DNA of 32,240 nucleotides from Polaribacter sp. (GTDB lineage Bacteria > Bacteroidota > Bacteroidia > Flavobacteriales > Flavobacteriaceae), in assembly GCA_020631275.1 (NCBI GenBank), contig JAHDHO010000004.1:1-32240 (forward strand), read 5' to 3'. Position numbers and translations under genes: made by a program. The notes beneath the pieces were generated by a model, which ran no database searches, was not told where the DNA came from, and was given only the letters and a program-made list of their open reading frames with translations. Below are positions 2,782 to 23,285 of this stretch, one piece after another. Position 1 is the first letter of the stretch; the number at the start of each line of letters is the position of its first letter.

Positions 2782-2789
2782 CAATATTA
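2782..2789 (-). promoter_or_regulatory. Probable -7 promoter element of the T9SS protein gene
   Basis: On the minus strand this reads TAATATTG, one mismatch from TAnnTTTG. It lies 27 bases before the ATG and 22 bases downstream of the 29-bp box. The susC copy of the box has a comparable element at 23 bases, and this shared geometry is the main support. Confidence 0.4.
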
Positions 2790-2811: not shown

Positions 2812-2840
2812 TAAAAAACACCACAACAAAAAACATACAT
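2812..2840 (-). promoter_or_regulatory. 29-bp conserved upstream box, copy A (putative PUL activator site)
   Basis: On the + strand the element reads T, six A, CACC, A, CAAC, six A, CATACAT. An element identical at 28 of 29 positions lies at 20325-20353 upstream of susC. Read in the direction of transcription it contains TGTTTTTT twice, 15 bases start to start, as expected for a dimer binding two half-sites. It ends 57 bases before the start codon. The adjoining regulator gene encodes a LuxR-type HTH that could bind it; that pairing is inferred. Confidence 0.65.
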
Positions 2841-4555: not shown

Positions 4556-4560
4556 ATTTT

Positions 4561-6057: not shown

Positions 6058-6064
6058 AATATTT

Positions 6065-7075
6065 TTATTTTTTATCTAAAGATGAATACACGTTTTTCAC
6101 AATAGAAAAAACCTCTTTTTTCTTTCTATTAATATCTACTATCCCCCAAAATTCTTCATTGGGCGCACCGTCGTATGGCACACCAGAACTATTAGGAGCC
6201 CAACCGCCAATATCTTGTTGATTATTATTACCGGCTTTCCATAAACCATCTGTAAAAGAAAACAATGTTACACCGTTACCTTTATCTTTATTCGCTACAA
6301 TCTTGCTTAAAATTTTTGAAGTAGCTGCTGCTTGTGCCTTCTCGTTAATTCCTTTTTCAAAACCATCTTTAGCAATTGTCATATAACTATCACTTCCTGC
6401 TTCTGATAAATACATAGGTTTAGAACTAATTTTTTGCCATTGCATAAAAATTTCTTCCGGATTATCCCATCTATAAACATTCATCCCCCAGACATCTATA
6501 TTTTTACCCTTTTCATATGCAATAGCATCTGGCAACTCACCATGAGCCGTTGCTACTGGATGATTACTATCTATTTTATGAATTGCTACTGCTGCTTTAT
6601 CCATAACGTTATACCAATTTAAAATATCACCATCAAACCATTCTGGATGATAATTGTATTCATTCCCCAACTCCCACATTAAAATTGCCTTATGATTTTT
6701 AAATTTCTCTATATAATTTAAATAAGAGCCCGAAAACAAATCATTTTTACCATCTTGTTTATACCCAAAACCAATAATTACTTTAATACCTGCTTTTTCC
6801 AATTTATTTAAAATTGCAACCTCTGCAATAGGTTCATATACTCTTATAGTGTTTATGCCTGCATCTTGCATTAATTTTAAATCTTGATCTATACTTTTGA
6901 AACTTCTTTTATTGCTTCCTTTAGGAACCGGATGATAGCAAATTCCTTTAATAAAATAAGGTGTATTATTTACTAAAATCTTATTTTTTGCCACACTTAC
7001 AACATCAGTTTGTACCTCTTTATTACAAGTGGTAAAAAGTAATATCGATAAGAAAATTAATACGTAATTTTTCAT
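6065..7075 (-). CDS. Clan GH-A glycoside hydrolase-like lipoprotein, family uncertain
   Basis: This 336-residue protein has a short lipoprotein signal (LLFTTC, Cys17) and a single TIM-barrel-like domain. Visible landmarks are FIKGICYHPVP (41-51), INTIRVYEP (74-82), a probable acid/base E139 in MWELGNEYN, WGMNVYRW (196-203) and a probable nucleophile E225 in MYLSEAGSDS. The order (..NE.. on strand 4, ..SE.. on strand 7) is that of clan GH-A. The N-terminal FIKG...TIRVY pattern resembles GH72 glucanosyltransferases and the catalytic domain of GH2, but I cannot settle the family. It sits 15 bases after GH17 and 7 bases before GH30, so it probably works on beta-1,3/1,6-glucan fragments in the periplasm. 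Transglycosylation is possible but unproven. Confidence 0.75.
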   Translation of the reverse strand: MKNYVLIFLSILLFTTCNKEVQTDVVSVAKNKILVNNTPYFIKGICYHPVPKGSNKRSFKSIDQDLKLMQDAGINTIRVYEPIAEVAILNKLEKAGIKVIIGFGYKQDGKNDLFSGSYLNYIEKFKNHKAILMWELGNEYNYHPEWFDGDILNWYNVMDKAAVAIHKIDSNHPVATAHGELPDAIAYEKGKNIDVWGMNVYRWDNPEEIFMQWQKISSKPMYLSEAGSDSYMTIAKDGFEKGINEKAQAAATSKILSKIVANKDKGNGVTLFSFTDGLWKAGNNNQQDIGGWAPNSSGVPYDGAPNEEFWGIVDINRKKKEVFSIVKNVYSSLDKK

Positions 7076-7090
7076 TTATAAGTTTAGTAT

Positions 7091-8365
7091 TTAGGGAAGT
7101 AAAACCGCCTCCATTAATTTTTGCTTATTCCCGTTATAAGACTTTATAATTGGTAAATTATTTCTTGTTAATGATTTAAACACATTTTTATCTACCAATT
7201 GCCATAGCGCAAATTTGGCCTCACTTTTATTATTTATTAATCCAAAGTGATTTTCTGATCCATCAGGATTTTCAGCATCTTTCCATTGCTCATCAAAAGC
7301 TTCAAAATAAAAACAAGTAACTCTATTACTACTAGACCATTCTCTTATAGATTTATAATATAAGGCTTGCTTATATTCATCGGTTGCTTTAGATCCTTTA
7401 GAACCATAAAAACCATTAGAATTTGTTGCCCAACCAGTTTCGCCTATATGAATCGGTTTTTGAACACCAAGACTTTCAACATATTTTTTTACATTTTCAT
7501 ATTGATTAATCGCATATTTTGCAGCTTTTTTCATTAAAGAATCTATTCTTAATTCTTTAGTTTTTTCGACACTTTTATCATTATAAACTTTCCAAAAAAC
7601 AGGATTATAATGTGTATCATGCATTGGATATGTGTGCATAGAAATAAAATCTACAGCTTTAATTAATTGTTTTAAATCCTTTGTATGGTAAGCTGTATCA
7701 CCACCACCCCAAGAGGCAAAATTATCTGAACTTGTAACCCAAAGTTTACTCGGCAACTCGCCTTGTTTCTTTAACTTTTGAAGATAATTCACCCATTTTA
7801 ATATCACTTTGGGCTGAACATAATAACTTGTTGCCCATTTTACCATTGCCTCATTACCAACAGAAATAATTTTTACAATTTTTGGATATTTCTTTGCCAA
7901 TGTAACAGCTGTTTCTATTTCAAAGGCATTTCTATCACTTTCTTCAAAATGATTAGGAGCTTTATTATTACTCCCAAAAGCGTTTTTGCAATCGATCCAA
8001 GCACCCAACATTACATACATTTCAAAGCCATTTTCTTCTTGTTTAAGTTGATAAATAGCTTCTAACAAATTTGCCGCTTGCTTTAAATGAACATTATACG
8101 TTCTTAAAACTTTAATGTTCATTGCAGACAAAATTTTTAAATCATCTTTTAGTTCTTGCATTGTAGGCTGAATATCTCTTGATTTTTGTCGATATCCGCC
8201 ATATGAAATAGCTAAATACTCTGCATTACCTAGAATTTCTGATGCTGACAAATTTCCATCTTCAACCTTGTTCTTAGTTGCATTACCTTTACATGAAATG
8301 ATAAAAAAGAGCATAATTATCCACACAAAATAAAGGACACAATTCTTCTTTTTTATCATTTCCAT
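7091..8365 (-). CDS. GH17 family lipoprotein, probable beta-1,3-glucanase/exo-glucosidase
   Basis: This 424-residue protein has a lipoprotein signal ending IISC (Cys25). The GH17 barrel shows ISYGGYRQ (53-60), VLRTYNVH (86-93), acid/base E172 in SVGNEAMVKW, ISMHTYPMH (241-249) and nucleophile E309 in IHIGETGWAT. These are the expected GH17 positions for a retaining mechanism. The late FYFEAFDEQWKD (352-363) and FGL.N match bacterial GH17 members. GH17 enzymes hydrolyse beta-1,3-glucans, and in laminarin PULs they act on unbranched segments after GH30 debranching. The annotated ATG (MEM...) could be replaced by the in-frame ATG two codons later without affecting the signal. It starts 15 bases past the phosphorylase stop, within the same presumed transcript. 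Confidence 0.9.
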   Translation of the reverse strand: MEMIKKKNCVLYFVWIIMLFFIISCKGNATKNKVEDGNLSASEILGNAEYLAISYGGYRQKSRDIQPTMQELKDDLKILSAMNIKVLRTYNVHLKQAANLLEAIYQLKQEENGFEMYVMLGAWIDCKNAFGSNNKAPNHFEESDRNAFEIETAVTLAKKYPKIVKIISVGNEAMVKWATSYYVQPKVILKWVNYLQKLKKQGELPSKLWVTSSDNFASWGGGDTAYHTKDLKQLIKAVDFISMHTYPMHDTHYNPVFWKVYNDKSVEKTKELRIDSLMKKAAKYAINQYENVKKYVESLGVQKPIHIGETGWATNSNGFYGSKGSKATDEYKQALYYKSIREWSSSNRVTCFYFEAFDEQWKDAENPDGSENHFGLINNKSEAKFALWQLVDKNVFKSLTRNNLPIIKSYNGNKQKLMEAVLLP

Positions 8366-8380
8366 TTTTATAATACTTTA

Positions 8381-11300
8381 TTAAAATGACACTCTAATAC
8401 TTGTCACCTCATTGGTTCTTTTGAATAATTTCATACTAACTTTTTGAGTTAACTCTAATTTTTTAAAAACATCTTTTTCGCCATTTTCATAAAAAACAAT
8501 TACATTTTTAGTTCCTGATTTCTCATAAACTATGGGTACTTGGCAATACGTAAAACTCAATTGATTTTCTAAAACTTTAATTGATTTTACATCACCAGAA
8601 ACTGCGACGTAATTAAAAAGCTTTTCTTCTGATAAAAATTCTGAAGATTTTAATAAACGAGGATTAAAAACAATTTTCCCATCCTTAACAAAAACCCCTA
8701 ATTCACCGAATCTACTTAAAATATCTTCCTTAACTTGACCTGTCATACCTGGTTGTTGCGCTCCTTTACCAGCAGGTGTATGAGAATAAGCATCCGTAGG
8801 AAATGCACCATATAATTTTGGAGATTTGTGCACTCCAATTCCTGCATTTATTTCATAATAATGATCTAAAAGTCTTCCAATAATAGCTTCATCTTCATTA
8901 TTTCTTACTGCCAATAAGCAGTTTTCTTGCACAGCAACTAATAATTTAGAAACCATGTGCCAATAAATTGAACCTAAACCTTCGTAACCAAAAAATGTAC
9001 CTGAACGACCTGTAAATGATTTATGATCAAAAATATCTTCAAAAATTGCAAAAACTTTAGCTGAGTCTTTATCTATTAATTTTTGGTACTTTTCTTTTGA
9101 TAAATTACCTAAAGCTTCTTTTAAGCTATTTGCATTATTAAAATTACCGTTAAAATGATAATTTCCTAAAATATCTTTTTCAATAATTTCTTTATTATTC
9201 TCTTTTACTAAAGCAGATAATAATTCTGAATTTTCAACACTGTTTTTAGCGATGTTATTCTTCTTTGTAAATCTTGGTAACTCTTTATTTGGATATAAAA
9301 TGTAACTGTACTGATCTTCTCTAAAAAGCGCACTGTTTTTTAATCCATCTAACAAACTAAGCGCTTCTTTTGGTGATAAATAGCCAGAACTTAAAACAGC
9401 AACCTGCCCTTCTAACATTTCAGACAGATAAGAAATTGATACCTCTTCTTTGCTTTCTATCGTCATTAAATTATAAGCATGAAACATATTATCTTTACGC
9501 TTGTTTGCTCTAATAGAATGTTCTAAGTACTTGTTTGTAACATTTATAAATGCTAATAAATCTTCTTTAGATATAGTTTTTTTTGTTGCAGAAAATCCAT
9601 TTTTATAAATATCTAATCTGTATTTACTCGCGGGTATTCCAAGACCATCTAACACTGTTTTTCTTTCTTTATCTGTAAAATCTCTAGATAAAATAGATTG
9701 ATATTTATTTAAAGTAGCTAAGACTTCGTTGAACAAAGTTTGTAATTCAGAAGAAATATTTACTTCAGAAATTGAAGATTCGCTTACTATATTCTCGTAA
9801 AAATTTAAGAATCTGCGTAAATAATAAAGTGTAACCATAGAAACACCATTACCTACCAAAGCGTTATTGGCATCGTTCCATTCTGGTCGTTGGGTATTCA
9901 ACCAAATACCTGCTTCTGGTATAAAATTAGAAACCTTTGCTAAAACTGTTGCTAATAATTTTTCTATTAAATTAACCTTATAAATTTCTTTATTTTTAAC
10001 TTCTAAAAGCGCTCCATCTGCACCAAGTTTACTTCTTTTATTATCTATTTCTGCATTTAATTGGTAATCAAAATCAATTGTATCTTTCGGATTTTCTAAT
10101 ATTTCTTCGTAAGATTTGATTTTGTATGGCACATTTGCATATACAAAAATATCCTCTGTAAATAATTTTGTTAATTCACTTGGGTAATGTTTCTCGATAA
10201 ACTCTAAAAACTTAAGCAAATAAATAATTTGATGATCACCCCAATAACCAATATAAGACCAAGGGTCGTGCTCTTCTATAACTTCCCAATCAAAACCACC
10301 TTTTGTAACTCTGTAAGGATTATAACCATCAAAAGTTGTTGCATTTAAAAACTTATGAATCATACTCTCGATAAACTCCGGATAAGAATGCGCTAAAGCC
10401 TCCCAATTCTGAAAAATATCACGCCAATTCCCCTCATAATCTAAAACTTTAGATCCGTCAACTTCATTTTTCGTATTGATAGAAAATTTGTTCCAAGGTC
10501 TACTTGGGTCTCCGTGTCTTCTACTAAACTTTAATGGTAAATACTCTAAACATAAACGCTTAAAATCTTTATCTGAGCTCGAATTCGCAATCTTTTTTAC
10601 TTCGGATAAGTTAAAAACAGCAGTTAATTTATTTAATTCAGCTTTATTATCTTGAAACACATTCTTATTTGCTTTTTGTAAATAGTTGATAAAATCTTCT
10701 TTTTCGATAGTATAATTATCGTCAAAAATTCCACCTCTCATTATATTAAAAAGCGTATTAGAAAAGTGTCTTGTATTCACTAAATCGTCTTCTGTTAACT
10801 GTAAACCGTCTGCAGAAGCCGTTAACTTTATTAAGTTTTTTGTACCCAAATCAATATCATCTTGCAATAAATTTTCTACTGCAGTTTTAGATTTTATTAT
10901 TTCAGAAATTTCTACAACATCAGCTACAGATTGATTTACGTTAGCAACTTGCAACCATTTTTTTTCTGAATTAGAAGGTAAATTGAATTCGAAAGCAGTT
11001 AAATAAGCACCTTTTTCTGCTTTAATTGCTGTTTCTTGCTCTAAAGCAACACCTCTTCTAAAGTTATTAATTTGTAGTGATGATAGTAAATAAGTAGGAT
11101 TGTTGATACCTAAAGACCATACAATGTTTGCTTTTAATGCTTCACTAGGTTCTGCTTTATCTACAATAATTGCACTTAAAGCATAAATACCTAAACCAAC
11201 ATGTTCTTCTAATTCACATTTTTTATAAGCATCTGCCAAATTACTAATATTTGCTTGTAAATCTGACCCAATACCAAACGGAATTATATCTTGAAAACCA

Positions 11301-11815
11301 TCTAGAGCTTCAACATTTATATTGGTTTTAGCATTGTTTACTAGAGTTGCTTTTCTAACAAAACCAAACTTATCACTAGAATTCCATTCATACTTAAAAG
11401 TTAATTCTAAATCGTTATTAATTTCTTCAAAAACAATTTTATTACCAAAAGTATTCTTATAAATATTTCTTGTTATATCATACAAACCAGCTTGTCTATC
11501 AGAAAAAGGTTCCCAAAGTTTTGTGCTTTCTTGCTCTTTTATTCTAAAAATAGTTTTACAACCTGTTGTTTCTGCTAACGCTGTAATTTTATCGTCTGTA
11601 TAATACGGAAATAAAGCATATTGAGCATTTTTTCTACCAGCAGTTAAACCACCATTACTCGATACAAACATCCAATGGTTCGAGTCTGACACAATGGTCA
11701 TAAAAAAAGGACGCATTGTATGTGTGTTTTCAATCTTATAAAAAGACTCTTTTTCTATAGTTACCAATTTTCCGTTATTAGTTACTATTGGCTTATCTTT
11801 AAAATCAGTACTCAT
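8381..11815 (-). CDS. GH149-type beta-1,3-glucan phosphorylase (cytoplasmic)
   Basis: This 1144-residue protein has no signal peptide or lipobox, unlike its glycosidase neighbours, so it should be cytoplasmic. The N-terminal third (about 10-300) is a beta-rich domain with HWMFVSSNGGLTAGRKN. The (alpha/alpha)6-type region shows DPSRPWNKFSI, YEGNWRDIFQNWEALAHSYP and RPEWNDANNALVGNGVSM. In the last motif D648 aligns by pattern with the general-acid Asp of the DWND motif in GH94 phosphorylases. A conserved late block (YGAFPTDAYSHTPAGKGAQQ, then PGMTGQVKED) and the overall length match GH149 and the related GH161. GH149 is favoured because it is known from Gram-negative bacteria including flavobacteria. 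The reaction would be beta-1,3-glucooligosaccharide plus phosphate to glucose-1-phosphate. It is preceded by the only sizeable gap (133 bp) in the block. Confidence 0.85.
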   Translation of the reverse strand: MSTDFKDKPIVTNNGKLVTIEKESFYKIENTHTMRPFFMTIVSDSNHWMFVSSNGGLTAGRKNAQYALFPYYTDDKITALAETTGCKTIFRIKEQESTKLWEPFSDRQAGLYDITRNIYKNTFGNKIVFEEINNDLELTFKYEWNSSDKFGFVRKATLVNNAKTNINVEALDGFQDIIPFGIGSDLQANISNLADAYKKCELEEHVGLGIYALSAIIVDKAEPSEALKANIVWSLGINNPTYLLSSLQINNFRRGVALEQETAIKAEKGAYLTAFEFNLPSNSEKKWLQVANVNQSVADVVEISEIIKSKTAVENLLQDDIDLGTKNLIKLTASADGLQLTEDDLVNTRHFSNTLFNIMRGGIFDDNYTIEKEDFINYLQKANKNVFQDNKAELNKLTAVFNLSEVKKIANSSSDKDFKRLCLEYLPLKFSRRHGDPSRPWNKFSINTKNEVDGSKVLDYEGNWRDIFQNWEALAHSYPEFIESMIHKFLNATTFDGYNPYRVTKGGFDWEVIEEHDPWSYIGYWGDHQIIYLLKFLEFIEKHYPSELTKLFTEDIFVYANVPYKIKSYEEILENPKDTIDFDYQLNAEIDNKRSKLGADGALLEVKNKEIYKVNLIEKLLATVLAKVSNFIPEAGIWLNTQRPEWNDANNALVGNGVSMVTLYYLRRFLNFYENIVSESSISEVNISSELQTLFNEVLATLNKYQSILSRDFTDKERKTVLDGLGIPASKYRLDIYKNGFSATKKTISKEDLLAFINVTNKYLEHSIRANKRKDNMFHAYNLMTIESKEEVSISYLSEMLEGQVAVLSSGYLSPKEALSLLDGLKNSALFREDQYSYILYPNKELPRFTKKNNIAKNSVENSELLSALVKENNKEIIEKDILGNYHFNGNFNNANSLKEALGNLSKEKYQKLIDKDSAKVFAIFEDIFDHKSFTGRSGTFFGYEGLGSIYWHMVSKLLVAVQENCLLAVRNNEDEAIIGRLLDHYYEINAGIGVHKSPKLYGAFPTDAYSHTPAGKGAQQPGMTGQVKEDILSRFGELGVFVKDGKIVFNPRLLKSSEFLSEEKLFNYVAVSGDVKSIKVLENQLSFTYCQVPIVYEKSGTKNVIVFYENGEKDVFKKLELTQKVSMKLFKRTNEVTSIRVSF

Positions 11816-11948
11816 TGACTTTATTTTTATTTTATTATTTTAAAAAATTGATATAAAAATCTTGCACTCTAATTCTTAAGAATGTACAATTCTATGACCT
11901 AAATACCTTAATTTTATTTAATACAACTACTTACAAAAGAGTTGTTTA
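11816..11948. other. 133-bp intercistronic region between GH16 and phosphorylase genes
   Basis: This is the only large gap inside the PUL block. It holds a small hairpin right after the GH16 stop (ACAACT at 11922-11927 pairing with AGTTGT at 11939-11945 region, about 11-base loop), AAATACCTTAA (11901-11911), and a perfect 12-bp palindrome ATTCTTAAGAAT (11872-11883). TAGAATTG on the minus strand just downstream of that (one mismatch from TAnnTTTG) could be a weak internal promoter. Together this suggests a processing or attenuation point separating surface functions from downstream catabolic genes. The arrangement is visible, the role is inferred. Confidence 0.4.
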
Positions 11949-13661
11949 TTATTGAAATACTTTAATATAATCTACCTCCATTACATCTTCTGTAAAAGCT
12001 GGATCTACATCACCACCAAGTGTTCCTCCCATAGCAACATTCATAATAAAAAAGAAGTCTGAATTAAAAGGCAAAGAAGTATCATTTGCAAGTGTATGGT
12101 AAGCAACATTGTCTATAGAAAATTTAATTTCAGTTTCAGACCAATCTATCGAATACACATGAAATTCTGTTGTAGATGTTGGCAAATTAGTAGACATTGA
12201 TGGTCCGCCTCCACCAAAATTACCAGGATAATGTATGGTGCTTAAAACTGTATTTTTATCACTCCCTTTTTGCTCCATAATATCCATTTCTCCTGCATTT
12301 GGCCAACCAACCGAATTAAAATTGGCTCCTAACATCCATATTGCAGGCCATGTACCTTGCGATGCTGGCAATTTGGCTCTAATTTCAAATCTACCGTAAG
12401 TAAATTCTTGTAACCCTTCCGATTTTAATCTAGCAGAAGTGTAACCCGCACCATTTTTCTTTGCTTTAATTTTTAAACTTCCGTTTTCTACAATTACATT
12501 TTCTGCATTATTCGTATACGTTTGAAGCTCGTTATTTCCCCAGCCACCTGCACCTAGATCGTAAGTCCAGTTTGCTGCATTTGGCGCTCCATCAGTATTA
12601 AAATCATCTTCCCAAACTAAATTTGTAAAAGCAGAAGTTGTTGCAGAACCTGGTTTTACTGTTGTAAATTTAAAATACCATGCTAAATTAGGATCTACAC
12701 CATCTAAAGTTCTAACATACATTTCTGTTTCTGAAATTTCTAAAATTTCGAAACTTGTAGAACTAACATAATATGCCATAAAACCACCGTTAGAAAAATT
12801 CATTTGAGTTCCTCTTGGCTGAAAAGCAGGATCTGCTACTTTAGACCAATCTTCAGATGAAGGTGCTAATGAAACATTACTATCGAATGAAGTATCAAAA
12901 GTAAAACATTCATCTCCGTTTGCTCCAGAAGCACCAACAACTGTTTGGTGTGCTGCATTTCCGTTGAAAAAAGTTTCTCCTTTGTTATCTAAAGCATACG
13001 TCATCGAGCCGTCTTCATTAATTGTAAATGTTAACTCATCGTCTGAATAACAATCATTTGTTGTACCTGCTGCGGCTGCAAAAAATGCTGGATAATAATA
13101 CTGACTTGGTCCTCCGTTAATTTGAATATCAAACGCTAAAGAAGGTCCAACACCTAAAGCACCATCAACAGTATTGTCGATGTACCAAGTTTTAGAAACC
13201 GGTGTAGTAACTTCTAAAATATCGTTACCAGCAGCATCTTTAGTCAAAGGTGCACCAGATAAAAAAGATCTAGCTTGAATATCATCAAAAGCACTAAAAA
13301 CCTCTAAAAGTACTGTAGAAGATGATGAAACACCACCTTTACCAGATGCAATAATTGTTACATTATATGTGTTTACCCCAGTTTTAGTAAATCTGTGTTC
13401 TACTTCTCCGCTAGAAGAAGCCACTTTATCAGAACCATCACCAAAATTATAAATATAACTTACTGCGTTGTTTGCAGTGGCTTTAAATTTTACAATTCCA
13501 GATCCATCACCATAAACGTTCACATCATCTTTCCCTATAATTTCATTTTGAATATTAATATTACTAGGAACTGCTATTTGACCAAATTCTTGATCTTCTT
13601 CTTGACAACTAAATAGTGTTATTGTCAATGAAAATAATAGTATATATTTTAATGTTTTCAT
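11949..13661 (-). CDS. PKD-containing GH16 endo-beta-1,3-glucanase (laminarinase) lipoprotein
   Basis: This 570-residue protein has lipobox LFSC (Cys19). Residues about 45-121 form a PKD domain (YIYNFGDGSDK ... HRFTKTGVNTYNVTI). Residues about 125-335 are an extra beta-rich domain of no family I recognise. The GH16 domain covers about 345-570. Its signature GEMDIMEQ gives nucleophile E458, assisting D460 and acid/base E463; the methionine between I and E is the beta-bulge insertion typical of laminarinases. WPAIWMLG and NVAMGG blocks are also present. The enzyme would cut internal beta-1,3 bonds of laminarin at the cell surface. It sits 30 bases after the surface glycan-binding protein gene and near the start of the susCD block, as expected for the initiating endo-hydrolase. 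Confidence 0.93.
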   Translation of the reverse strand: MKTLKYILLFSLTITLFSCQEEDQEFGQIAVPSNINIQNEIIGKDDVNVYGDGSGIVKFKATANNAVSYIYNFGDGSDKVASSSGEVEHRFTKTGVNTYNVTIIASGKGGVSSSSTVLLEVFSAFDDIQARSFLSGAPLTKDAAGNDILEVTTPVSKTWYIDNTVDGALGVGPSLAFDIQINGGPSQYYYPAFFAAAAGTTNDCYSDDELTFTINEDGSMTYALDNKGETFFNGNAAHQTVVGASGANGDECFTFDTSFDSNVSLAPSSEDWSKVADPAFQPRGTQMNFSNGGFMAYYVSSTSFEILEISETEMYVRTLDGVDPNLAWYFKFTTVKPGSATTSAFTNLVWEDDFNTDGAPNAANWTYDLGAGGWGNNELQTYTNNAENVIVENGSLKIKAKKNGAGYTSARLKSEGLQEFTYGRFEIRAKLPASQGTWPAIWMLGANFNSVGWPNAGEMDIMEQKGSDKNTVLSTIHYPGNFGGGGPSMSTNLPTSTTEFHVYSIDWSETEIKFSIDNVAYHTLANDTSLPFNSDFFFIMNVAMGGTLGGDVDPAFTEDVMEVDYIKVFQ

Positions 13662-13691
13662 TTTTATATTTTTATAAAGTTATCTTTTATA

Positions 13692-14545
13692 CTAGTTGCT
13701 AGATAATGAAACATTATCAATATTAACTTGACCTACAGCTGCACCTAAATCGAAAATTACTCTGGCATCTGTTGCACCAAAATCTGTTGCCGTTAAGGTT
13801 ACACTATACGTTGTTACTTCTGTTGTTATATTTACAGTTTCTGCTGTATTAGACCAAGGCGCTGCGCTTAAACCAATTCCTGCAATTATTGGTCTATTTA
13901 CATCAGACCAAGCATCAAAAGTTAATGTGTATGTGTTTCCTTGAACTATTTCTACCTTCTGACTCAAGTTTACATCATAAGGATTTCCTGCAGCTGTTAC
14001 ATTTACAGAATAATATGTATTACCATTATCTGTAACTACTGGTGCAGAAGAGTTATCATCTACGCCTATTAACCAAGAATCGCTTCCGTTTTCAAAATCT
14101 GAATTATTTAACACATTTCCTTTTCCTATGATTAACGATACGTTATCAATATTTACTAAACCAACTGCTGCACCAATATCGAAAATTACTCTCGCATCTA
14201 TTGCCCCAAATTCTGTAGCCATAAGTGTTATTGAATATGAAGATCTTGTTGGAGTAATGTTAACTGTTTCTGTTGTATTAGACCAAGGTGAAGCACTTAA
14301 ACCAATACCTGCAATAATTGGTCTATTTACGTCTGACCAAGCATCAAAAGTTAATGTGTAAGTATTGCCTTGAATAATTTCTACTTTCTGACTTAGATTT
14401 ACATCATAAGGATTTCCTGCAGCTGTTACATTTACAGAATAATATGTATTGCCATTATCTGTAACTACTGGTGCAGAAGAATTATCATCAACACCAATTA
14501 ACCAAGCTTCACTTCCATTTTCAAAATCTCCGTTTGTTAATAAAC
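13692..14545 (-). repeat. Tandem duplicated CBM coding segment (429-bp period)
   Basis: The two CBM4-like modules are encoded by consecutive copies with a 429-base (143-codon) period. The segment from about 13960 to 14100 is almost identical to that from about 14390 to 14530, with only scattered, mainly third-position changes. The flanking parts of the module have diverged more. This marks a recent duplication or gene conversion between the copies. Confidence 0.8.
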
Positions 14546-15683
14546 CATCGTTAAAAGTAGTTGAAGCATCTGGCTCTTTATAGAAATAAAAATTATCTAT
14601 ATAAACTACATTAGAAATGCCATCAGAATCAATTAAAATTTGAGTAATCTTATTCTTGTTTGCTAGATCACCACCGTCAAAACCTGTAATATCTAAATCT
14701 ATACTTTGCCAAGATCCACCAACGGTTGTGCCTAAAGATTCTACATCTTCACCACCATCTACAGTGTTAACTATTTTAACTAACAACTCATTGGTAGCAT
14801 CATTAGGCACCCAATAATCTATGTGTAATTTTTCCATAGAAGATACATCGATTCCGCTATCGTAAATGGTAACCATACCAACAAAATCTAAATTTGTTAA
14901 TTTCCAAACATTATTATTATCTATTGTTACTGCTTCGAAACCAGAAGAAGACCAAGTTGTAGGTAATTCGTTTAATGTTACATCGGTATAAGTATCACTA
15001 AAAATCGAAACAACGTCTTCTGCTTTTCTATTCTTCGGATTTGGTGCCGCTTCTAATGGCGCTAAAATTTCTGTTACTGTAAATTCTTCTGTATATTCTA
15101 AAGTTGCAATTGCTGCACCTTTTGCTACAATTTTAATTGAATAATCACCCGCTTCTTTATAAAGGTAAGAAATAGTTTCACCTATATTACCAGAAACTGG
15201 TTCGGTTGCATTTACTTCACCTGAATAAAAATCGAACATGGATGCAAAATCTGCATTTACAGTAATATTTACTTGTTTAGATATTGCTGCATCATTTTCT
15301 AAAACTACAACTATATTTTGAGGTGCTTTAAATGAAACTACCAATTGTTGTATAGCTTCAGTTTTATCTCCGTTTAAATTATAAGCAACAATTTTTACAT
15401 CGTGCGTACCTTCTGAATAAACATTAGATGCACTTTCGCCTTGTTCTAAATTAACCGGCGTAGTAGTATCTGCATCAAAATAAACATCGTAATAAGTTGC
15501 TCCTTCTGCATTTGGCGTAATTGTAACTTCGCCAGTATTATCTTGCTTTATATTATAACTAGCTGTAACATTTGTTGGTGCCGATATATTATCTGCAAAA
15601 GAAAGGTCGTTTAAATTATCTTTACACGCTGCAAACAAGAACAATACGATAAAGAATCTATATATATTATTTATTTTTTTCAT
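13692..15683 (-). CDS. Surface glycan-binding lipoprotein with two tandem CBM4-like modules
   Basis: This 663-residue lipoprotein (FAAC, Cys20) occupies the SusE/SusF-like position after SusD. The predicted order is two PKD/Ig-like spacers (about 31-119 and 120-205), a galactose-binding-like beta-sandwich (about 226-370) ending YIDNFYFYKEP, then two CBM4_9-type modules (about 381-518 and 524-661). Each CBM starts N.DFENGS..WLIGVDD and ends with NIDNVSL. CBM4 modules are known to bind beta-1,3-glucans, and conserved Trp/Tyr residues (W394, W449, W467 and equivalents) could line the clefts. No catalytic motif is present. It probably holds laminarin chains at the surface for the neighbouring GH16 and SusCD. 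Gaps to SusD and GH16 are 10 and 30 bases, so it is co-transcribed. Confidence 0.88.
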   Translation of the reverse strand: MKKINNIYRFFIVLFLFAACKDNLNDLSFADNISAPTNVTASYNIKQDNTGEVTITPNAEGATYYDVYFDADTTTPVNLEQGESASNVYSEGTHDVKIVAYNLNGDKTEAIQQLVVSFKAPQNIVVVLENDAAISKQVNITVNADFASMFDFYSGEVNATEPVSGNIGETISYLYKEAGDYSIKIVAKGAAIATLEYTEEFTVTEILAPLEAAPNPKNRKAEDVVSIFSDTYTDVTLNELPTTWSSSGFEAVTIDNNNVWKLTNLDFVGMVTIYDSGIDVSSMEKLHIDYWVPNDATNELLVKIVNTVDGGEDVESLGTTVGGSWQSIDLDITGFDGGDLANKNKITQILIDSDGISNVVYIDNFYFYKEPDASTTFNDGLLTNGDFENGSEAWLIGVDDNSSAPVVTDNGNTYYSVNVTAAGNPYDVNLSQKVEIIQGNTYTLTFDAWSDVNRPIIAGIGLSASPWSNTTETVNITPTRSSYSITLMATEFGAIDARVIFDIGAAVGLVNIDNVSLIIGKGNVLNNSDFENGSDSWLIGVDDNSSAPVVTDNGNTYYSVNVTAAGNPYDVNLSQKVEIVQGNTYTLTFDAWSDVNRPIIAGIGLSAAPWSNTAETVNITTEVTTYSVTLTATDFGATDARVIFDLGAAVGQVNIDNVSLSSN

Positions 15684-15693
15684 CTTTTAACTA

Positions 15694-17184
15694 TTAATTA
15701 TATCCTTGATTTTGAGACCAACGATTACCTGTTAATTGAATTTCTATTGCCGGAATTGGAAACAGCTCATTTTTATCTGTTTGAAAACCAGAAATATTCG
15801 CTGCTGCTTCTCCCGTTCTTACTAAATCGAAAAATCGATGCCCTTCACCAGCTAATTCTAATCTTCTTTCATTAAAGATAATAGCTGTTAAATTTGCTCC
15901 GGTTTCTGAGATATTATGTAACATGTCTCCAAAAGCACGTTGCCTTACTAAATTTAAATATTCTAATGCCTTAGCATCATTTGCCGTAGGTTTTCTATTA
16001 TGAGCCTCTGCAGCCATTAACAGAACGTCTGCAAAACGAATTGCTCTGTAATTATTAGGATTTGTTAAATTTCTATCAGCTTGTGCATCTGTACCTCTTT
16101 TTCTTGGTAAATATTTTTTATTAAAATAACCAGTATGTTCGAAACCAGTATTAAATTCTGCTCCTGTTTGAGTTGCCCAAGCATTAATATCTAAAATTGT
16201 TAGATCTTTTCGCATATCACCGTCTTCAAAAGCATCTACTAAATCTTGTACAGGAACGTTAAAACTAAAACCAGAAGTAAACTCTGGTCCTTCATAACCT
16301 CTTACACCGTTAAATCCAACAGCAACATTACCTTCACTACACTGTAAACATCCAAAACCCGCACCTTGTGTTTCTGTATATTGCACTTCAAACACAGATT
16401 CTACACTATTTTCATTATCATTTTCAAACAAATCCATAAACGTAGCTGCATCCGTAACTAAACTGTGTGGTCCATTTAAAATTAAATTATCTAAAACGTC
16501 GGCAGCTTCTGTAAATTTATTTTGATATAAATATGCTTTACCTAACAAAGCTTCTGCTGCTCCTTTAGTAACTCGTCCTGTTTCTGACTGAACATATGGC
16601 AAATTGTTTGCCGCAAATATTAAATCTTGTTCTATTTGCAAATAAACCTCTGCTTTAGGCGTTCTATCTAGATTAAATTGATCTCCAAAAAGAATTCTTT
16701 GATCTACAACCAAAGGCACATCACCAAACCATTTTACCAACTCGAAATAATAATAAGCTCTTAAAAATCTTGCTTGTGCAATCACTTCTTCTTTACCAGA
16801 AAAATCTATTTTATCTTTAAACTCTAAGATATAATTCGCTCTGTTAACACCTGCAAACATCCAACTCCAGATATCTCTTAATTGCTGATTTTCTGATGTA
16901 TGAATCATGTCATCAATTTCTTGAATAGCAACAACATCTGTTGCACTTTCTCCGCCTGCTAATGTATTATCTGATGCAATTTCACCTAACAGAACGTTTA
17001 AATACGAAGATTGTAACATATCATAAGCACCAATTAAAGCGTTTTGATAATCTTCTTCTGTATTAAAATAATCTTCTGAGTTTTCTGCTGTCGATTCTAC
17101 ATCAACAAAATCATCACTACAACTTGTAATTAAAATTGAAGAGAATAAAAAGATAGCTATATATTTTATATGTAATTTTTTCAT
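15694..17184 (-). CDS. susD: SusD/RagB-family outer-membrane glycan-binding lipoprotein
   Basis: This 496-residue protein has a lipoprotein signal (LITSC, Cys22) and the typical SusD start, SDDFVDVESTAENSEDYFNTEED, read in two parts. The TPR-like helical region includes ARFLRAYYYFELVKWFGDVPLV (about 132-153) and the later NYRAIRFADVLLMAAEA. The C-terminal block FNERRLELAGEGHRFFDLVRTG and final FPIPAIEIQLTGNRWSQNQGYN are hallmark SusD sequences. It caps the SusC transporter and binds the incoming oligosaccharide on the outer surface. It starts ten bases after susC, forming the obligate pair. Substrate specificity for beta-1,3-glucan is inferred from neighbouring enzymes, since SusD sequence alone does not show it. 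Confidence 0.95.
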   Translation of the reverse strand: MKKLHIKYIAIFLFSSILITSCSDDFVDVESTAENSEDYFNTEEDYQNALIGAYDMLQSSYLNVLLGEIASDNTLAGGESATDVVAIQEIDDMIHTSENQQLRDIWSWMFAGVNRANYILEFKDKIDFSGKEEVIAQARFLRAYYYFELVKWFGDVPLVVDQRILFGDQFNLDRTPKAEVYLQIEQDLIFAANNLPYVQSETGRVTKGAAEALLGKAYLYQNKFTEAADVLDNLILNGPHSLVTDAATFMDLFENDNENSVESVFEVQYTETQGAGFGCLQCSEGNVAVGFNGVRGYEGPEFTSGFSFNVPVQDLVDAFEDGDMRKDLTILDINAWATQTGAEFNTGFEHTGYFNKKYLPRKRGTDAQADRNLTNPNNYRAIRFADVLLMAAEAHNRKPTANDAKALEYLNLVRQRAFGDMLHNISETGANLTAIIFNERRLELAGEGHRFFDLVRTGEAAANISGFQTDKNELFPIPAIEIQLTGNRWSQNQGYN

Positions 17185-17194
17185 GGTCTATTTT

Positions 17195-20100
17195 TTAAAA
17201 ATTAACATTTAATCCTACTAAAAAAGTCTTTGGAGTTGGATAAAATCCTTGATCAATTCCGCCACCAATTGGTGCTCCGTTAGAAGTTGTTGGGTCGTAA
17301 CCTCTATATTTAGTTAACGTAACTAAATTATTTGCAGATACATAAAAACGGAACTTACTTAAACCTACTTGTTCTAATATTTTTTGGTCTAAAGAATACC
17401 CCAATTGTATATTTTGCAACCTTACAAAAGAACCATCTTCTACAAAAAAGTCAGAAAAAAGTGCGTTACTATTTGCCCCTGTTGTAACTCTCGGAAAAGT
17501 ATTTGATGTTCCGGCACCTGTCCATCTATCTAAATAATATCTTGGTCTGTTTGTTAATGGTAAATTTCTTTCGAAGTTTCTTACAATTTCATTTCCAAGA
17601 GATGCAAAAGCATACATGTTAAAATCGAAATTTTTATAGTCAAAAGAAAAATTTAAACCCATTGTTACATCAGCAATAGGATCTCCGATGTATGTTTTAT
17701 CTTCATTTGTAATTTCTCCATCGTTATTAATGTCTCTAAATCTTAAATCTCCAGGATTCGCATTTGTCTGTGTTGCATGTGCATCAACTTCTGCTTGAGT
17801 TTGAAAAATTCCATCTGTTTGATATCCGTAGAAATAACCGATTGGCATACCTGCTTCCATTCTAGAAGGTGGATCTTGACCTACACCAAATGAACCGCCA
17901 AATAAAACGCCGCTTTCATTACCAACAAATAAAACTTCGTTTTCTAAAGTTGTGAAATTATACTTAATTCCGAAGTTAAAATCTTCTGAAACCGTTTCTT
18001 TGTAACCAATTGAGAACTCGAAACCTTTATTCTCTACAGTACCTGCATTTACAATAGGACTTCCAGAACCTGGTGCAGAAGCACCTAAGATTCCTGAAAC
18101 TTCTGGATTTAACAATAAATCTTCAGTTCTCTTATTAAAGTAATCTGCAGTAATATTTATTTTATTAAAAAGCTCTAAATCTACACCAATATCTAAAGGA
18201 ATTTGTTTTTCCCATTTAATTTCTGGATTCGATATTGCGCCAAGAGCAGTTCCGAATTGCAATTGATTATTAAAAACATATTCTCCTTCACCTGATAAGG
18301 TAGAAACAAAACCAAAACTCGAAATTCTATCGTTACCAATTACACCGTAACTTGCTCTTAATTTTAAAAAGCTTAAAACATCGTTATCTTCTAAAAACTT
18401 TTCTTTAGAAGCTACCCAACCAACTGATGCAGTAGGAAAATATCCAAATTTATTTTTTGGTCCGAAGTTTGAAGATCCATCTCTTCTAATTACTGCAGAC
18501 ATTAAATACTTACCATCATAATTGTATTGCAATCTTGCAAAATAAGATAACAACCTACTGTCAAAAAAACGTCTTGGTTGATTGCTAAGTGCTAAATTAT
18601 CTTGAGATGTATCTGCCCCTGAAACACTAACACTCTCTAATGTATTACCATTAGCTCCGAAACCTAATAAATTAGACTTATTAATTCCTTGAGATCTAAA
18701 AACCGAAGTACCTAATAAGACTTTAACATCATGAACATCATTAAAAGTTTTCTCATATTTTAATAAAGCATCAAAAGTATAATCTTTATAAGTCTGTTCA
18801 CTTTCAAAAACAGATGAAGTATTATTTGCATCCGTTAAATCTGCAAGAGCACTTACAGTATTAAACACCTTACCAGAACCATAATAAACTTCTGGACTAT
18901 AACTTTTTGTTTTTACTGATGCATGGTTAAATTGAATTCTAGATTCTGCAGAAAAACCGTCTAAAAAAGAATAATTTAAACCATAGCTACCAGCAAATTT
19001 ATTTACCCATGTTCTATTGTAAGCGTTTTCTGTTTGCGCAAGAGGATTCACAACTTCGATACCAACACCTGTGTTTGGCGCAAAAGAATAATCGCCATTA
19101 GCATCTCTAATTGAAATATTAGAAGGCATGTTTAAGGCATTAAATAAAACAGAACCTAAAGCATTTTCTGGCAAACCTCTTCTATTAGTATTCGTATAAA
19201 TTGAAGAAGATGTAAATTTTAAATTTTCTAAAATATCTGTACTAAAATTAAATTTAGCTGTAGTTCTATTAAAATTCGCTTTAGAACCACCTACAATACC
19301 ATCTTGATCTAAATGTGATGCACCAAAAGAATACGTAGATTTATCGGTACCTTTGGTAGCATTAAAATCTATACTAGAAATTGCAGCGTCTTTAAAAACT
19401 TCGTCTTGCCAATTTGTACCTACACCCAAATTAGAAATATTGTTAAAAGGCAAACTCTCTGCATTTGCAGCAAAAGCTTCGTTTGCTAAAAGAGCATATT
19501 CTGTAGCGTTTAATAAGCTGATGCTTCTAGTAGTTCTTTGAAAACCTGCATAAGCGTTTAAATTGTATTTAAACTCTGTATTTTTTCTACCAGATTTTGT
19601 TGTAATAATAATAACTCCGTTTGCACCACGTACACCGTAAATACCAGCCGAAGCATCTTTTAAAACATTCATAGATTCGATGTCTGATGGATTTATAACA
19701 CTTAAATCTTCTATAACATTACCATCTACCAATATTAAAGGGTTGTTATTTCCGTTTGTAGAAATACCTCTAATTCTAATATTTAAAGCTGCACCTGGTG
19801 CACCAGAAGAAGATGTAATGTTTACACCTGCAACTTGACCTTGTAAAGCTTGTTCTATTCTTGTTGGTTTTAAATTCTGAATTTCTTCACTCGAAACAAC
19901 GGCAACTGCACCTGTAATTTCCTTTTTCTTCTGAGCACCATAACCTACTACAACAATTTCATCTAAAGATTCTGATTCTACTGTTAAAAAAACATTTAAA
20001 TTGATAGAAGAAACTGTAACCTCAACCTCTTTTTCTGCATAACCTAGATATCTAAAAACTAAAACTGCTCCTTTTCTTATACTGTTTAGAGAGTAATTTC

Positions 20101-20269
20101 CTTCAAAATCTGTATTTGTTCCTTTAGCTGTACCTTTTAATATGATGCTAACTCCTGGTAGCGGATCTCCATTAGCAGCATCTTTAACAACACCTTTTAT
20201 ATTTATAGTTTGTGCAGTTGCACAAAAACCTATAAATAATAGAAGTAAAAATGTGATTTGTTTTCTCAT
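17195..20269 (-). CDS. susC: SusC-type TonB-dependent outer-membrane glucan transporter
   Basis: This 1024-residue protein has a signal peptide ending FCATAQ (20). Next come a carboxypeptidase-regulatory-like beta-sandwich (about 21-98, GVVKDAANGDPLPGVSIILKG), a TonB-box-like segment DEIVVVGYGAQKK (103-115), and a plug domain with GVNITSSSGAPGAALNIRIRG, PLILVDGN and YGVRGANGVIIITTKSG (about 115-228). The rest is a 22-strand-type beta-barrel ending in the aromatic C-terminal strand FLVGLNVNF. Length and motif order are standard for SusC. It imports oligosaccharides across the outer membrane with SusD, powered by TonB-ExbBD. It is the first gene of the PUL transcript. Its start is preceded by a probable -7 element and the 29-bp conserved box, which indicates substrate-induced transcription. 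Confidence 0.96.
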   Translation of the reverse strand: MRKQITFLLLLFIGFCATAQTINIKGVVKDAANGDPLPGVSIILKGTAKGTNTDFEGNYSLNSIRKGAVLVFRYLGYAEKEVEVTVSSINLNVFLTVESESLDEIVVVGYGAQKKKEITGAVAVVSSEEIQNLKPTRIEQALQGQVAGVNITSSSGAPGAALNIRIRGISTNGNNNPLILVDGNVIEDLSVINPSDIESMNVLKDASAGIYGVRGANGVIIITTKSGRKNTEFKYNLNAYAGFQRTTRSISLLNATEYALLANEAFAANAESLPFNNISNLGVGTNWQDEVFKDAAISSIDFNATKGTDKSTYSFGASHLDQDGIVGGSKANFNRTTAKFNFSTDILENLKFTSSSIYTNTNRRGLPENALGSVLFNALNMPSNISIRDANGDYSFAPNTGVGIEVVNPLAQTENAYNRTWVNKFAGSYGLNYSFLDGFSAESRIQFNHASVKTKSYSPEVYYGSGKVFNTVSALADLTDANNTSSVFESEQTYKDYTFDALLKYEKTFNDVHDVKVLLGTSVFRSQGINKSNLLGFGANGNTLESVSVSGADTSQDNLALSNQPRRFFDSRLLSYFARLQYNYDGKYLMSAVIRRDGSSNFGPKNKFGYFPTASVGWVASKEKFLEDNDVLSFLKLRASYGVIGNDRISSFGFVSTLSGEGEYVFNNQLQFGTALGAISNPEIKWEKQIPLDIGVDLELFNKINITADYFNKRTEDLLLNPEVSGILGASAPGSGSPIVNAGTVENKGFEFSIGYKETVSEDFNFGIKYNFTTLENEVLFVGNESGVLFGGSFGVGQDPPSRMEAGMPIGYFYGYQTDGIFQTQAEVDAHATQTNANPGDLRFRDINNDGEITNEDKTYIGDPIADVTMGLNFSFDYKNFDFNMYAFASLGNEIVRNFERNLPLTNRPRYYLDRWTGAGTSNTFPRVTTGANSNALFSDFFVEDGSFVRLQNIQLGYSLDQKILEQVGLSKFRFYVSANNLVTLTKYRGYDPTTSNGAPIGGGIDQGFYPTPKTFLVGLNVNF

Positions 20270-20293
20270 AAATAAAGAGTTTTATTTTTTTGA

Positions 20294-20301
20294 TAAATTT
20301 A
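20294..20301 (-). promoter_or_regulatory. Probable -7 promoter element of susC
   Basis: The minus strand reads TAAATTTA, one mismatch from TAnnTTTG. It lies 24 bases before the susC ATG and 23 bases below the 29-bp box, matching the arrangement ahead of the T9SS protein gene. Both share GTTAA at the upstream edge of the element. No separate -33 TTG is needed if the activator box replaces it. Confidence 0.4.
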
Positions 20302-20324: not shown

Positions 20325-20353
20325 TAAAAAACACCTCAACAAAAAACATACAT
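20325..20353 (-). promoter_or_regulatory. 29-bp conserved upstream box, copy B (putative PUL activator site)
   Basis: The + strand reads T, six A, CACC, T, CAAC, six A, CATACAT. It differs from copy A (2812-2840) at one position. It ends 55 bases before the susC start, against 57 for copy A, and has the same orientation relative to the gene. The matching position ahead of two co-functional genes supports a regulatory role, most likely as an activator-binding site. Confidence 0.7.
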
Positions 20354-20477: not shown

Positions 20478-23285
20478 TTAAATGTTCAAAATATAATTTG
20501 TTAAGTTCATATCGTGCTCTAAATTCATCTTTTTTCTTAATCGATATCTTTTAACCTCTACACTTCTAGGGGAAATATTTAACAAAGGAGCAATCTCTTT
20601 AGAAGATAAATTTAACCGAAGATATGCGCACAACCTCAAATCATTAGGTGTTAAATTATCGTGCTTCTCTTTCATTTTATCTAAGAAATTTTGATCTGCA
20701 TTATTAAATGCTTCTTGAAACATTTTCCAATCGTCTGTATTGTTTAAATTATTATCAATAATTTTAACTACCTTTTTAATGTTTTGTTCATCACCTTTAA
20801 GAAGTTCAGTTTTTAAATTACTTAAAAACTCATTCTTCTTTATAATACTCATTGTAGATGTTGCCAATTCTCTATTTTTACTAGCAATATCGTTTCTTAA
20901 CTTTTCATTATTAAGTTTGATAATTTTTTGAGAACTTTCTAACTCTTTTAACTCTATCTCTCTTTGAGCTTTCATTAATAGTTTTTGCTGCTTAGCATTG
21001 TAATATTTCTTTGATAACATATACCATATCAACACTAAAAGAATAAAAATTAGAACATACACTAAAATTGCAAACTCAGACAAATACCATGGTTTTGCTA
21101 TATTAAAATTAAAACTAGCAATGTTACTACTAATTTTACCAGACATTAAAGCTCTAACTTTAAAAGTATAATTACCATGAGGTAAGTTTTCAAAAAGTGT
21201 AGTATTAGACTCAGAATAATCGCTCCATTTGCTATTGTAACCTTCTAATTTATGCTGATATGTTATATTAGCAGAACTTACAAAACTTGGTACACTATAA
21301 GAAAACTCTACACTATTCTCTTTGGTTTTAAATATTACTTCTTTAGTTAATTTTATATGCTTAATAGGCTTATCAGTCTCATAATTAATTACTTTAGTTA
21401 TACTTATATTGAAACTTTTTGGCACCTCAATTTTACTCAAATCCACTATTAAATACCCGTTTATTGTTCCAACCAAATATTTATCATTTTCTAAGTGAAT
21501 AATATTCTCGAAACCAGAAGCCCCCTTTAGTAGATTATTTTTTATAGGAATAATATTTAAATTAGGTTTGTTGCTTAAAGCTCCGGGACTTAAATATCTT
21601 AGCCCTTCATTTGTAAACGCCCACAACTTATTGGTTCGTTTATCTGTAATCAACTTTGCAGATACAAAGTTTTTCTTAGGTAATAAATTACTGTAAACTG
21701 AATCAATTTTAAAAATGTCTTCTAAAGAATTGTACTTAAAAACACCTTCTTTAGATGCATAAAGTACATCATTATTATATTTAATTAAACTAGAATGCAG
21801 TCCTTTATTTACCGACATTTCTTTTTCTACTTGTTCAACATTTTTTAAATCTGAATCAATCTTTAATTTAAAAACGCCTTTATACTCATGATTCACAAAA
21901 ATTTTGGAATTGTCTAAAATTAAAAAATAACGACTCGAATTATCAAAACCATTGATCTTATTTCTTAAAACCCAATTATTATTATTTTTTTGTAATACAT
22001 ACAAACCATCATAACTTCCTTGAATAATTAAATTACCGCTAATTGCCTTAAAATCCCAACTTCCTTGAGAATCAAAAATTAAGTTTGCTTTTTTATCGTT
22101 TATAATAAAAGTACCAGAATCATGACCACAAAACAAAGTTCCGTTGATAGCCTTTAAACTCCATACCTGCCCCTGAGTTTTATTCACAAATTTAAAAGGA
22201 TCTGTTGTGTTGTATTTTTTAACGAACAAACCTTGATTTGTACCTAAATACATGTTTCCCTCAAATAATAAGGTTGTATAAATTGTCCCCAAATATTCTT
22301 TCTGATTTGAGAAAGTTTTAAACGGAGAATTAAAGTTAACTAAGTTTATTCCGTTATCTAAACCCAACCATAAGTTTTTCTCAAAATCTTGAAAAATAGA
22401 AAGTACAGTGTTGTTACTTAATCCTAAATTTTGATTGAGTTCATATTCAATTTCTCCTAATTTATTGATATATATTAAACCATTAGATATCGTACCTAGA
22501 ACAAGAGAATCATCAACTAAAATTTCTGCACTGTAAATAGTATTATATTTTAAAACTTCATCTGCATTAATATTCCATTTTACAACCTTATTATTTTCAA
22601 AAAAATAAAACCCTTTTTTTTGCGTTAAAAAAAGAGGCTTATCGTTTAAATAAAAAATATTTATTAGTTTATTCTTCTTAAATACCGCATCATCAGAAAC
22701 CAAAAGAGAGGCACCATTTTCAATTTTAAACAAGCCTTTTTCAATATCTTGAAAATAAACGACATTATTTACTTTGGCAATCTTGGTAATAGAGTTGAAA
22801 CTTTCTATAATTTTAACATTTCTACTATTTAAGTTGTATAAATAAATTCTTTGTAAAGATTTAAATAACACCCAACCGTCTAACTCTATAATTTCCCATA
22901 TTTGCTCATCTTCTAACATCTTAACTTTTTCGATATTAACGAGAGAAGAATATTTTAGCAATCCAAATTCATCTTTTTCCCAATAACCAAAATCCATAAA
23001 AAAACCGGTGTAAATTCTATTAGAAATACATTTTACAGAACGCATTATAGTTTCATTTGGCGTAACATAAAGTTGCCAATCTTCTCCATTAAACTCTAAC
23101 AAACCTTTATTATTAGCTACATATATATATTTGTTTTCAGATTGAGAAATAGACCAATTTTGGTTTTCCCCACCATATTGTTCAGTCGTGTAAACATCTA
23201 TTGGAGGCACCTCTTGTGATCTTAACACACCTGCTACAAACAACAAAATGACAACAACAATATTTCTAGAAATATACTTTTCCAT
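20478..23285 (-). CDS. Transmembrane one-component PUL regulator: propeller + Y_Y_Y sensor with LuxR-type HTH
   Basis: This 935-residue protein has a signal peptide (ending GVLRSQ). The periplasmic part has propeller-type repeats (about 30-620, such as ENLWLGLDNGINLVNF) and a triple-tyrosine (Y_Y_Y) domain (about 665-730, YQHKLEGYNSKWSDYSE ... LPHGNYTFKVRA). One transmembrane helix (about 738-757) leads to a cytoplasmic coiled coil rich in Lys/Glu (about 765-810). The end is a LuxR/GerE-like HTH (about 878-922, LTPNDLRLCAYLRLNLSSKE then IAPLLNISPRSVEVKRYRLR). No histidine kinase or receiver domain is present, so signal passes directly through the membrane to the DNA-binding domain. This is unlike hybrid two-component PUL regulators and closer to SusR-like activators. 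It lies directly upstream of susC in the same direction and probably activates it through the 29-bp box. Confidence 0.88.
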   Translation of the reverse strand: MEKYISRNIVVVILLFVAGVLRSQEVPPIDVYTTEQYGGENQNWSISQSENKYIYVANNKGLLEFNGEDWQLYVTPNETIMRSVKCISNRIYTGFFMDFGYWEKDEFGLLKYSSLVNIEKVKMLEDEQIWEIIELDGWVLFKSLQRIYLYNLNSRNVKIIESFNSITKIAKVNNVVYFQDIEKGLFKIENGASLLVSDDAVFKKNKLINIFYLNDKPLFLTQKKGFYFFENNKVVKWNINADEVLKYNTIYSAEILVDDSLVLGTISNGLIYINKLGEIEYELNQNLGLSNNTVLSIFQDFEKNLWLGLDNGINLVNFNSPFKTFSNQKEYLGTIYTTLLFEGNMYLGTNQGLFVKKYNTTDPFKFVNKTQGQVWSLKAINGTLFCGHDSGTFIINDKKANLIFDSQGSWDFKAISGNLIIQGSYDGLYVLQKNNNNWVLRNKINGFDNSSRYFLILDNSKIFVNHEYKGVFKLKIDSDLKNVEQVEKEMSVNKGLHSSLIKYNNDVLYASKEGVFKYNSLEDIFKIDSVYSNLLPKKNFVSAKLITDKRTNKLWAFTNEGLRYLSPGALSNKPNLNIIPIKNNLLKGASGFENIIHLENDKYLVGTINGYLIVDLSKIEVPKSFNISITKVINYETDKPIKHIKLTKEVIFKTKENSVEFSYSVPSFVSSANITYQHKLEGYNSKWSDYSESNTTLFENLPHGNYTFKVRALMSGKISSNIASFNFNIAKPWYLSEFAILVYVLIFILLVLIWYMLSKKYYNAKQQKLLMKAQREIELKELESSQKIIKLNNEKLRNDIASKNRELATSTMSIIKKNEFLSNLKTELLKGDEQNIKKVVKIIDNNLNNTDDWKMFQEAFNNADQNFLDKMKEKHDNLTPNDLRLCAYLRLNLSSKEIAPLLNISPRSVEVKRYRLRKKMNLEHDMNLTNYILNI

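Follow-up and report, generated by a model that had tools for sequence, protein, structure and literature searches.

The closest described systems are the regulators of PULs in Bacteroides. SusR-like regulons are governed by a PUL regulator that likewise spans the membrane; their sites lie ahead of the sus operons, were also obtained by phylogenetic footprinting, and resemble one another as the regulators do (Ravcheev et al. 2013, PMC3878776). The HTCS regulators of Bacteroides bind direct repeats with a spacing of about 21 bp (PMC3878776). The laminarin PULs of a Formosa strain are induced by laminarin (PMC6246565), and a study of M. lutaonensis (PMC13188888) reports that many laminarin clusters with GH16 and GH149 begin with a gene annotated as LuxR. 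The passages of that study on these clusters take the gene as a sign of co-regulation and mention no operator. A search of an open-access library found no published operator for the laminarin PUL regulator of the Polaribacter/Formosa group.

The window considered here, a whole stretch of 32,240 nucleotides of Polaribacter sp. DNA, contains a beta-glucan utilisation locus. Its GH149 1,3-beta-glucan phosphorylase scores 1797 bits in NCBIfam; a 424-aa protein encoded within the locus (7091-8365) has no Pfam or NCBIfam match. A 29-bp element stands ahead of susC and again ahead of a distant gene for a T9SS-sorted protein (Table 1). Judged from its pattern of conservation, the element is very probably the operator for the adjacent membrane-spanning regulator, which would activate both the susC operon and the distant gene. 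The preliminary description had assigned the element to this adjacent LuxR-HTH protein; conservation, co-occurrence with the regulator gene and covariation with the recognition helix all support the assignment.

Table 1. Genes and predicted control elements of the window, with third-class operators of relatives
Feature	Position	Strand	Remarks
Regulator, 935 aa, operator partner (predicted)	20478..23285	-	signal peptide, periplasmic sensor, TM helix, LuxR HTH
Operator copy 1 (predicted)	20325..20353	-	ahead of susC; conserved core TGTATGTTTTTTGTTGAGG at 20334-20352
-7 box TAAATTTA, susC promoter	20294..20301	-	conserved 30-31 nt after core; inferred transcription start ~20289
susC, TonB-dependent receptor	17195..20269	-	first gene of operon under copy 1 (predicted)
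Rest of glucan locus	3131..17184	-	SusD, CBM4_9, PKD/GH16, GH149, GH2/GH72-like, GH30, GPH/MFS transporter, one protein without match
Operator copy 2 (predicted)	2812..2840	-	ahead of T9SS-sorted protein gene; core TGTATGTTTTTTGTTGTGG at 2821-2839
-7 box TAATATTG, T9SS-gene promoter	2782..2789	-	same core spacing; inferred transcription start ~2777
472-aa protein, T9SS type A sorting domain	1336..2754	-	under copy 2 (predicted)
Third-class operators	L112:9017; L118:6666; L123:8272; L129:8348		oriented, 0-based offsets

The two copies agree at 28 of 29 bases and face the same way, as had been described. With start codons at 20269 and 2754 the distances of 55 and 57 bases are borne out, and the -7-like elements that had been noticed downstream of both copies were located at 20301-20294 and 2789-2782. 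Chance had been considered an unlikely source of the pair, and none of 100 dinucleotide shuffles gave a comparable match. A weight matrix constructed from other sequences matches the window twice, with scores of 46.8 and 45.8; nothing else in the window scores above 6, and the chance level, taken as the maximum in a 2.7-Mb Markov sequence, is 13.6. The genome as a whole was searched by pattern matching, the weight matrix being applied to the window and to selected sites. No third copy of the 23-nt pattern was found with up to 3 mismatches in the 2.7-Mb assembly (241 contigs, 88.8% complete). When the conserved core is compared with the genome, the next best sites have 2 mismatches and those examined score no higher than 12.3 with the weight matrix. 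Since the two copies are the only matrix and pattern matches, the phosphorylase, the regulator and the giant gene have no copy of their own, in agreement with the preliminary description. Its further statement, that the element marks exactly two transcription units, holds for this assembly but fails for some relatives, in which a third unit has the site. The giant gene is an open frame of 2887 aa (23578-32238) that runs off the window; it has no operator ahead of it and contains many Asp-rich repeats of ~26 aa (78 nt) each.

The element is conserved in orthologous promoters, where the preliminary description had proposed to look for it. A same-genus set of 81 regulator-susC intergenic regions was assembled from the window and the regions downstream of 80 orthologous regulators, and the element is present in 77 of them, mostly ~100-200 nt past the regulator stop codon. 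Beyond this set, 45 of another 48 loci have a PWM score of 15 or more, which exceeds the Markov-sequence maximum; most of the 48 come from other genera of the Flavobacteriaceae, among them Tenacibaculum, Formosa, Olleya, Winogradskyella, Aquimarina, Lutibacter and Flagellimonas. Exact cores occur in 54 of 299 family genomes and the reversed control pattern in 0; the element is not scattered at unrelated genes. In one relative (L125, genome G051) the susC-side site is absent near the regulator, and a site with 1 mismatch lies 1.5 kb further, before a gene for a ~1055-aa protein.

Presence of the core follows presence of the regulator. Across 146 genomes of the genus, a core with at most 1 mismatch was found in 80 of the 95 with the regulator versus 2 of the 51 without it (Fisher p = 7e-23, from counts that take no account of shared ancestry), and the reversed control pattern is almost absent. 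The 15 genomes that have the regulator and no core within 1 mismatch include some that are incomplete and some with weaker sites. Of the genomes lacking the regulator, L188 and L190 (G057 and G020) share a core-like site 266 nt before a gene that by eye is acetyl-CoA-synthetase-like; the site has a PWM score of only 12.4.

The genes that follow the sites fall into recognisable classes. Where regulator and core occur together (80 genomes), the core is present twice in 37 and three times in 5. At least 29 of the 49 distinct non-susC sites precede genes whose products start with MKKIT or MKNIT; the complete proteins mostly have T9SS tails at the end and dissimilar middle parts, and a Pfam sorting domain was found in 5 of 5 tested. 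Most of the remaining non-susC sites are ahead of a protein of ~950-1059 aa and form a third site class in some relatives; in several Polaribacter the product is a ~1055-aa secreted protein (MKN..LRL...NGKDFMVNG), and no Pfam match was obtained for L112, the only one tested. Both additional classes have the orientation of the susC sites, and the operator to -7 spacing of 30-31 is kept at 28 of 29 T9SS sites and 15 of 20 other non-susC sites. In L209 (G025 contig 7) an operator with a PWM score of 36.8 lies on a separate contig ahead of a SusC-like gene, which may mark a second locus controlled by the same or a sister regulator.

Alignment of the same-genus regulator-susC regions gives the core consensus TGTATGTTTTTTGTWGNGG, with a T-rich run before it and NNTTTTT after it. 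Information content is at background level upstream of the site; a renewed rise falls mainly on the -7 box TAnnTTTR, which lies 30 or 31 nt past the core in 61 of 77 regions. The sigma-A -7 box occupies positions -12 to -5 (PMC9723704), which puts the core at about -63 to -44 and the transcript starts near 20289 and 2777. The preliminary description had read the element as two TGTTTTTT half-sites 15 bp apart, and this is not what conservation shows: the second G of such a pair (core position 21) is G in just 21 of 77 regions, lag 15 has the lowest local self-similarity, and the downstream T-run is missing at the T9SS-gene sites. The best lag in a self-similarity scan is 11, corresponding to a TGTW direct repeat, yet it is within the shuffled-column null; two tentative TGTW half-sites 11 bp apart would fit the site better than the TGTTTTTT pair. 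Other known layouts were considered and rejected. Classical NarL/LuxR sites are inverted repeats; here the best inverted self-similarity is negative. A SusR-like pair of distant boxes would require a second conserved box, and none was found between -140 and +90 in 76 aligned promoters. The site is best described as compact and asymmetric, and possibly consists of two tandem TGTW units.

The operator also varies with the recognition helix. In 113 non-redundant regulator-operator pairs, R907K accompanies loss of T at operator base 15 (14/15 vs 33/98; p = 1e-5, site by site without phylogeny correction), and V911T accompanies changes at bases 4-5 (4/4 vs 4/109) and 15 (4/4 vs 0/109), the four V911T cases perhaps amounting to few independent events. 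Bases 4-5 and 15 are equivalent places in two TGTW units 11 bp apart, and residue 911 probably aligns with NarL Val189, a base-contacting residue. The Thr-911 regulators L328, L332, L331 and L353 go with the altered operators TGTTCG..ATCGAGG, TGTACG..GTGGTGG and TGTCTG..GTGGAGG. A partial Mantel test of operator against HTH distance, with the sensor controlled, was not significant (p = 0.12), so the helix covariation is support and not proof. Paralogous regulators of ~43% identity, which occur in genomes that also hold the main regulator, have a variant site TGTAGTTTTTTTGTAAAGGT before their own susC in 5 of 6 cases; 33%-identical paralogs have no similar site.

The regulator consists of a signal peptide, a propeller/Y_Y_Y sensor, one strong transmembrane helix (residues 735-759), a helical linker and a C-terminal LuxR/GerE HTH. 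Its Pfam content is Reg_prop, Y_Y_Y and the GerE-type HTH only, and neither a kinase nor a receiver domain was found in Pfam or NCBIfam searches. By profile the sensor matches the PDB HTCS sensors 4a2l, 3ott and 3v9f, best over the Y_Y_Y end. Close named relatives place the DNA in Polaribacter, the best of them being Polaribacter sp. BM10, whose regulator is 82% identical. Autoregulation was rejected, as a PWM site of 20 or more is found upstream of the regulator in 0 of 30 relatives.

From this domain content, the periplasmic propeller/Y_Y_Y domain would sense glucan or an oligosaccharide, and the transmembrane helix and helical linker would bring the C-terminal LuxR-type HTH to the ~20-bp site. 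The HTH would be bound at about -63 to -44 from the transcription start, conceivably as two HTHs arranged head-to-tail over a pair of TGTW half-sites with 11-bp spacing. There the regulator would recruit or stabilise RNA polymerase at sigma-A promoters with a -7 box 30-31 bp from the core, and the susCD-glycosidase operon and a gene further away that encodes a type IX-secreted, probably surface-displayed, protein would be switched on jointly. The geometry makes activation probable, and the gene content makes laminarin a plausible inducer. As a broader and distinctly more tentative proposal, kinase-less LuxR-HTH transmembrane PUL regulators across the Flavobacteriaceae may read compact tandem TGTW sites head-to-tail at a spacing of 11 bp, or one helical turn, with residues 907 and 911 setting specificity, in which case the regulons of paralogs, T9SS genes included, could be read from sequence.

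Other explanations of the element differ in the protein that binds it and in what binding does. The sign of regulation is not given by sequence alone, and the regulator might bind as a repressor or anti-activator that is released by glucan. Overlap with the -7 box or the start site would be more common for a repressor, whereas this site is upstream of the core promoter, as is usual for an activator, and keeps a fixed phase to the -7 box in three promoter classes that are unrelated to one another; repression is unlikely. The site might also be occupied by an unlinked transcription factor, global or AraC-type, with the LuxR-HTH protein acting elsewhere or only modulating, given that HTCS or global regulators bind many Bacteroidota PUL promoters (PMC3878776). 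For a global factor, far more sites would be expected than the one to three of most genomes and the exactly two found here. In addition the core tracks the regulator gene in presence and absence, adjoins it, and varies with helix residues 907 and 911 and between paralogs, all of which makes an unlinked factor improbable.

Some PULs are under ECF sigma factors (PMC3878776), and the element could in principle be an ECF promoter element, or could act in the 5' leader as an RNA element. In place of a near -10 box, however, there is a canonical sigma-A -7 box (TAnnTTTG class) 30-31 bp downstream. At this distance the element is too far for a -35 box and upstream of the transcription start, so the ECF type was rejected and the whole explanation is very improbable. 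Two near-identical copies in A/T-rich DNA could also be a repeat that arose by chance or by recent duplication, or else a mobile element. The shuffles gave no such match, and the orthologous promoters of many genera keep the site while their flanks are not kept; this conservation already refutes the account, to which we give practically no weight.

Laminarin is a major marine pool of fixed carbon, and Polaribacter, Formosa and their relatives are leading degraders of it. A conserved operator would allow the regulon to be listed from any genome, and because the site is kept across many marine algal-glucan eaters, glucan-responsive genes should be predictable from their DNA. The predicted operator connects glucan use with an unlinked class of T9SS-secreted proteins, and the element is a ready target for footprint or reporter experiments. 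The covariation of operator and helix offers a first step in predicting which targets other regulators of the same type have.

Compared with the known systems, the regulator belongs to the same HTH family as the proteins that bind NarL/LuxR-type operators. Its sensor, with propeller and Y_Y_Y, is related by sequence to that of the HTCS of Bacteroides, which have single-PUL regulons and direct-repeat sites; a single HTCS protein carries kinase, receiver and AraC HTH together, and none of these was found in the regulator here. In SusR sites two boxes lie 67 or 77 bp from each other, whereas the site here is a single compact one of ~20 bp, and the C-terminal domain of SusR is described as lacking significant similarity to other known DNA-binding domains, whereas the present regulator ends in a recognisable LuxR/GerE HTH (PMC3878776 for SusR).
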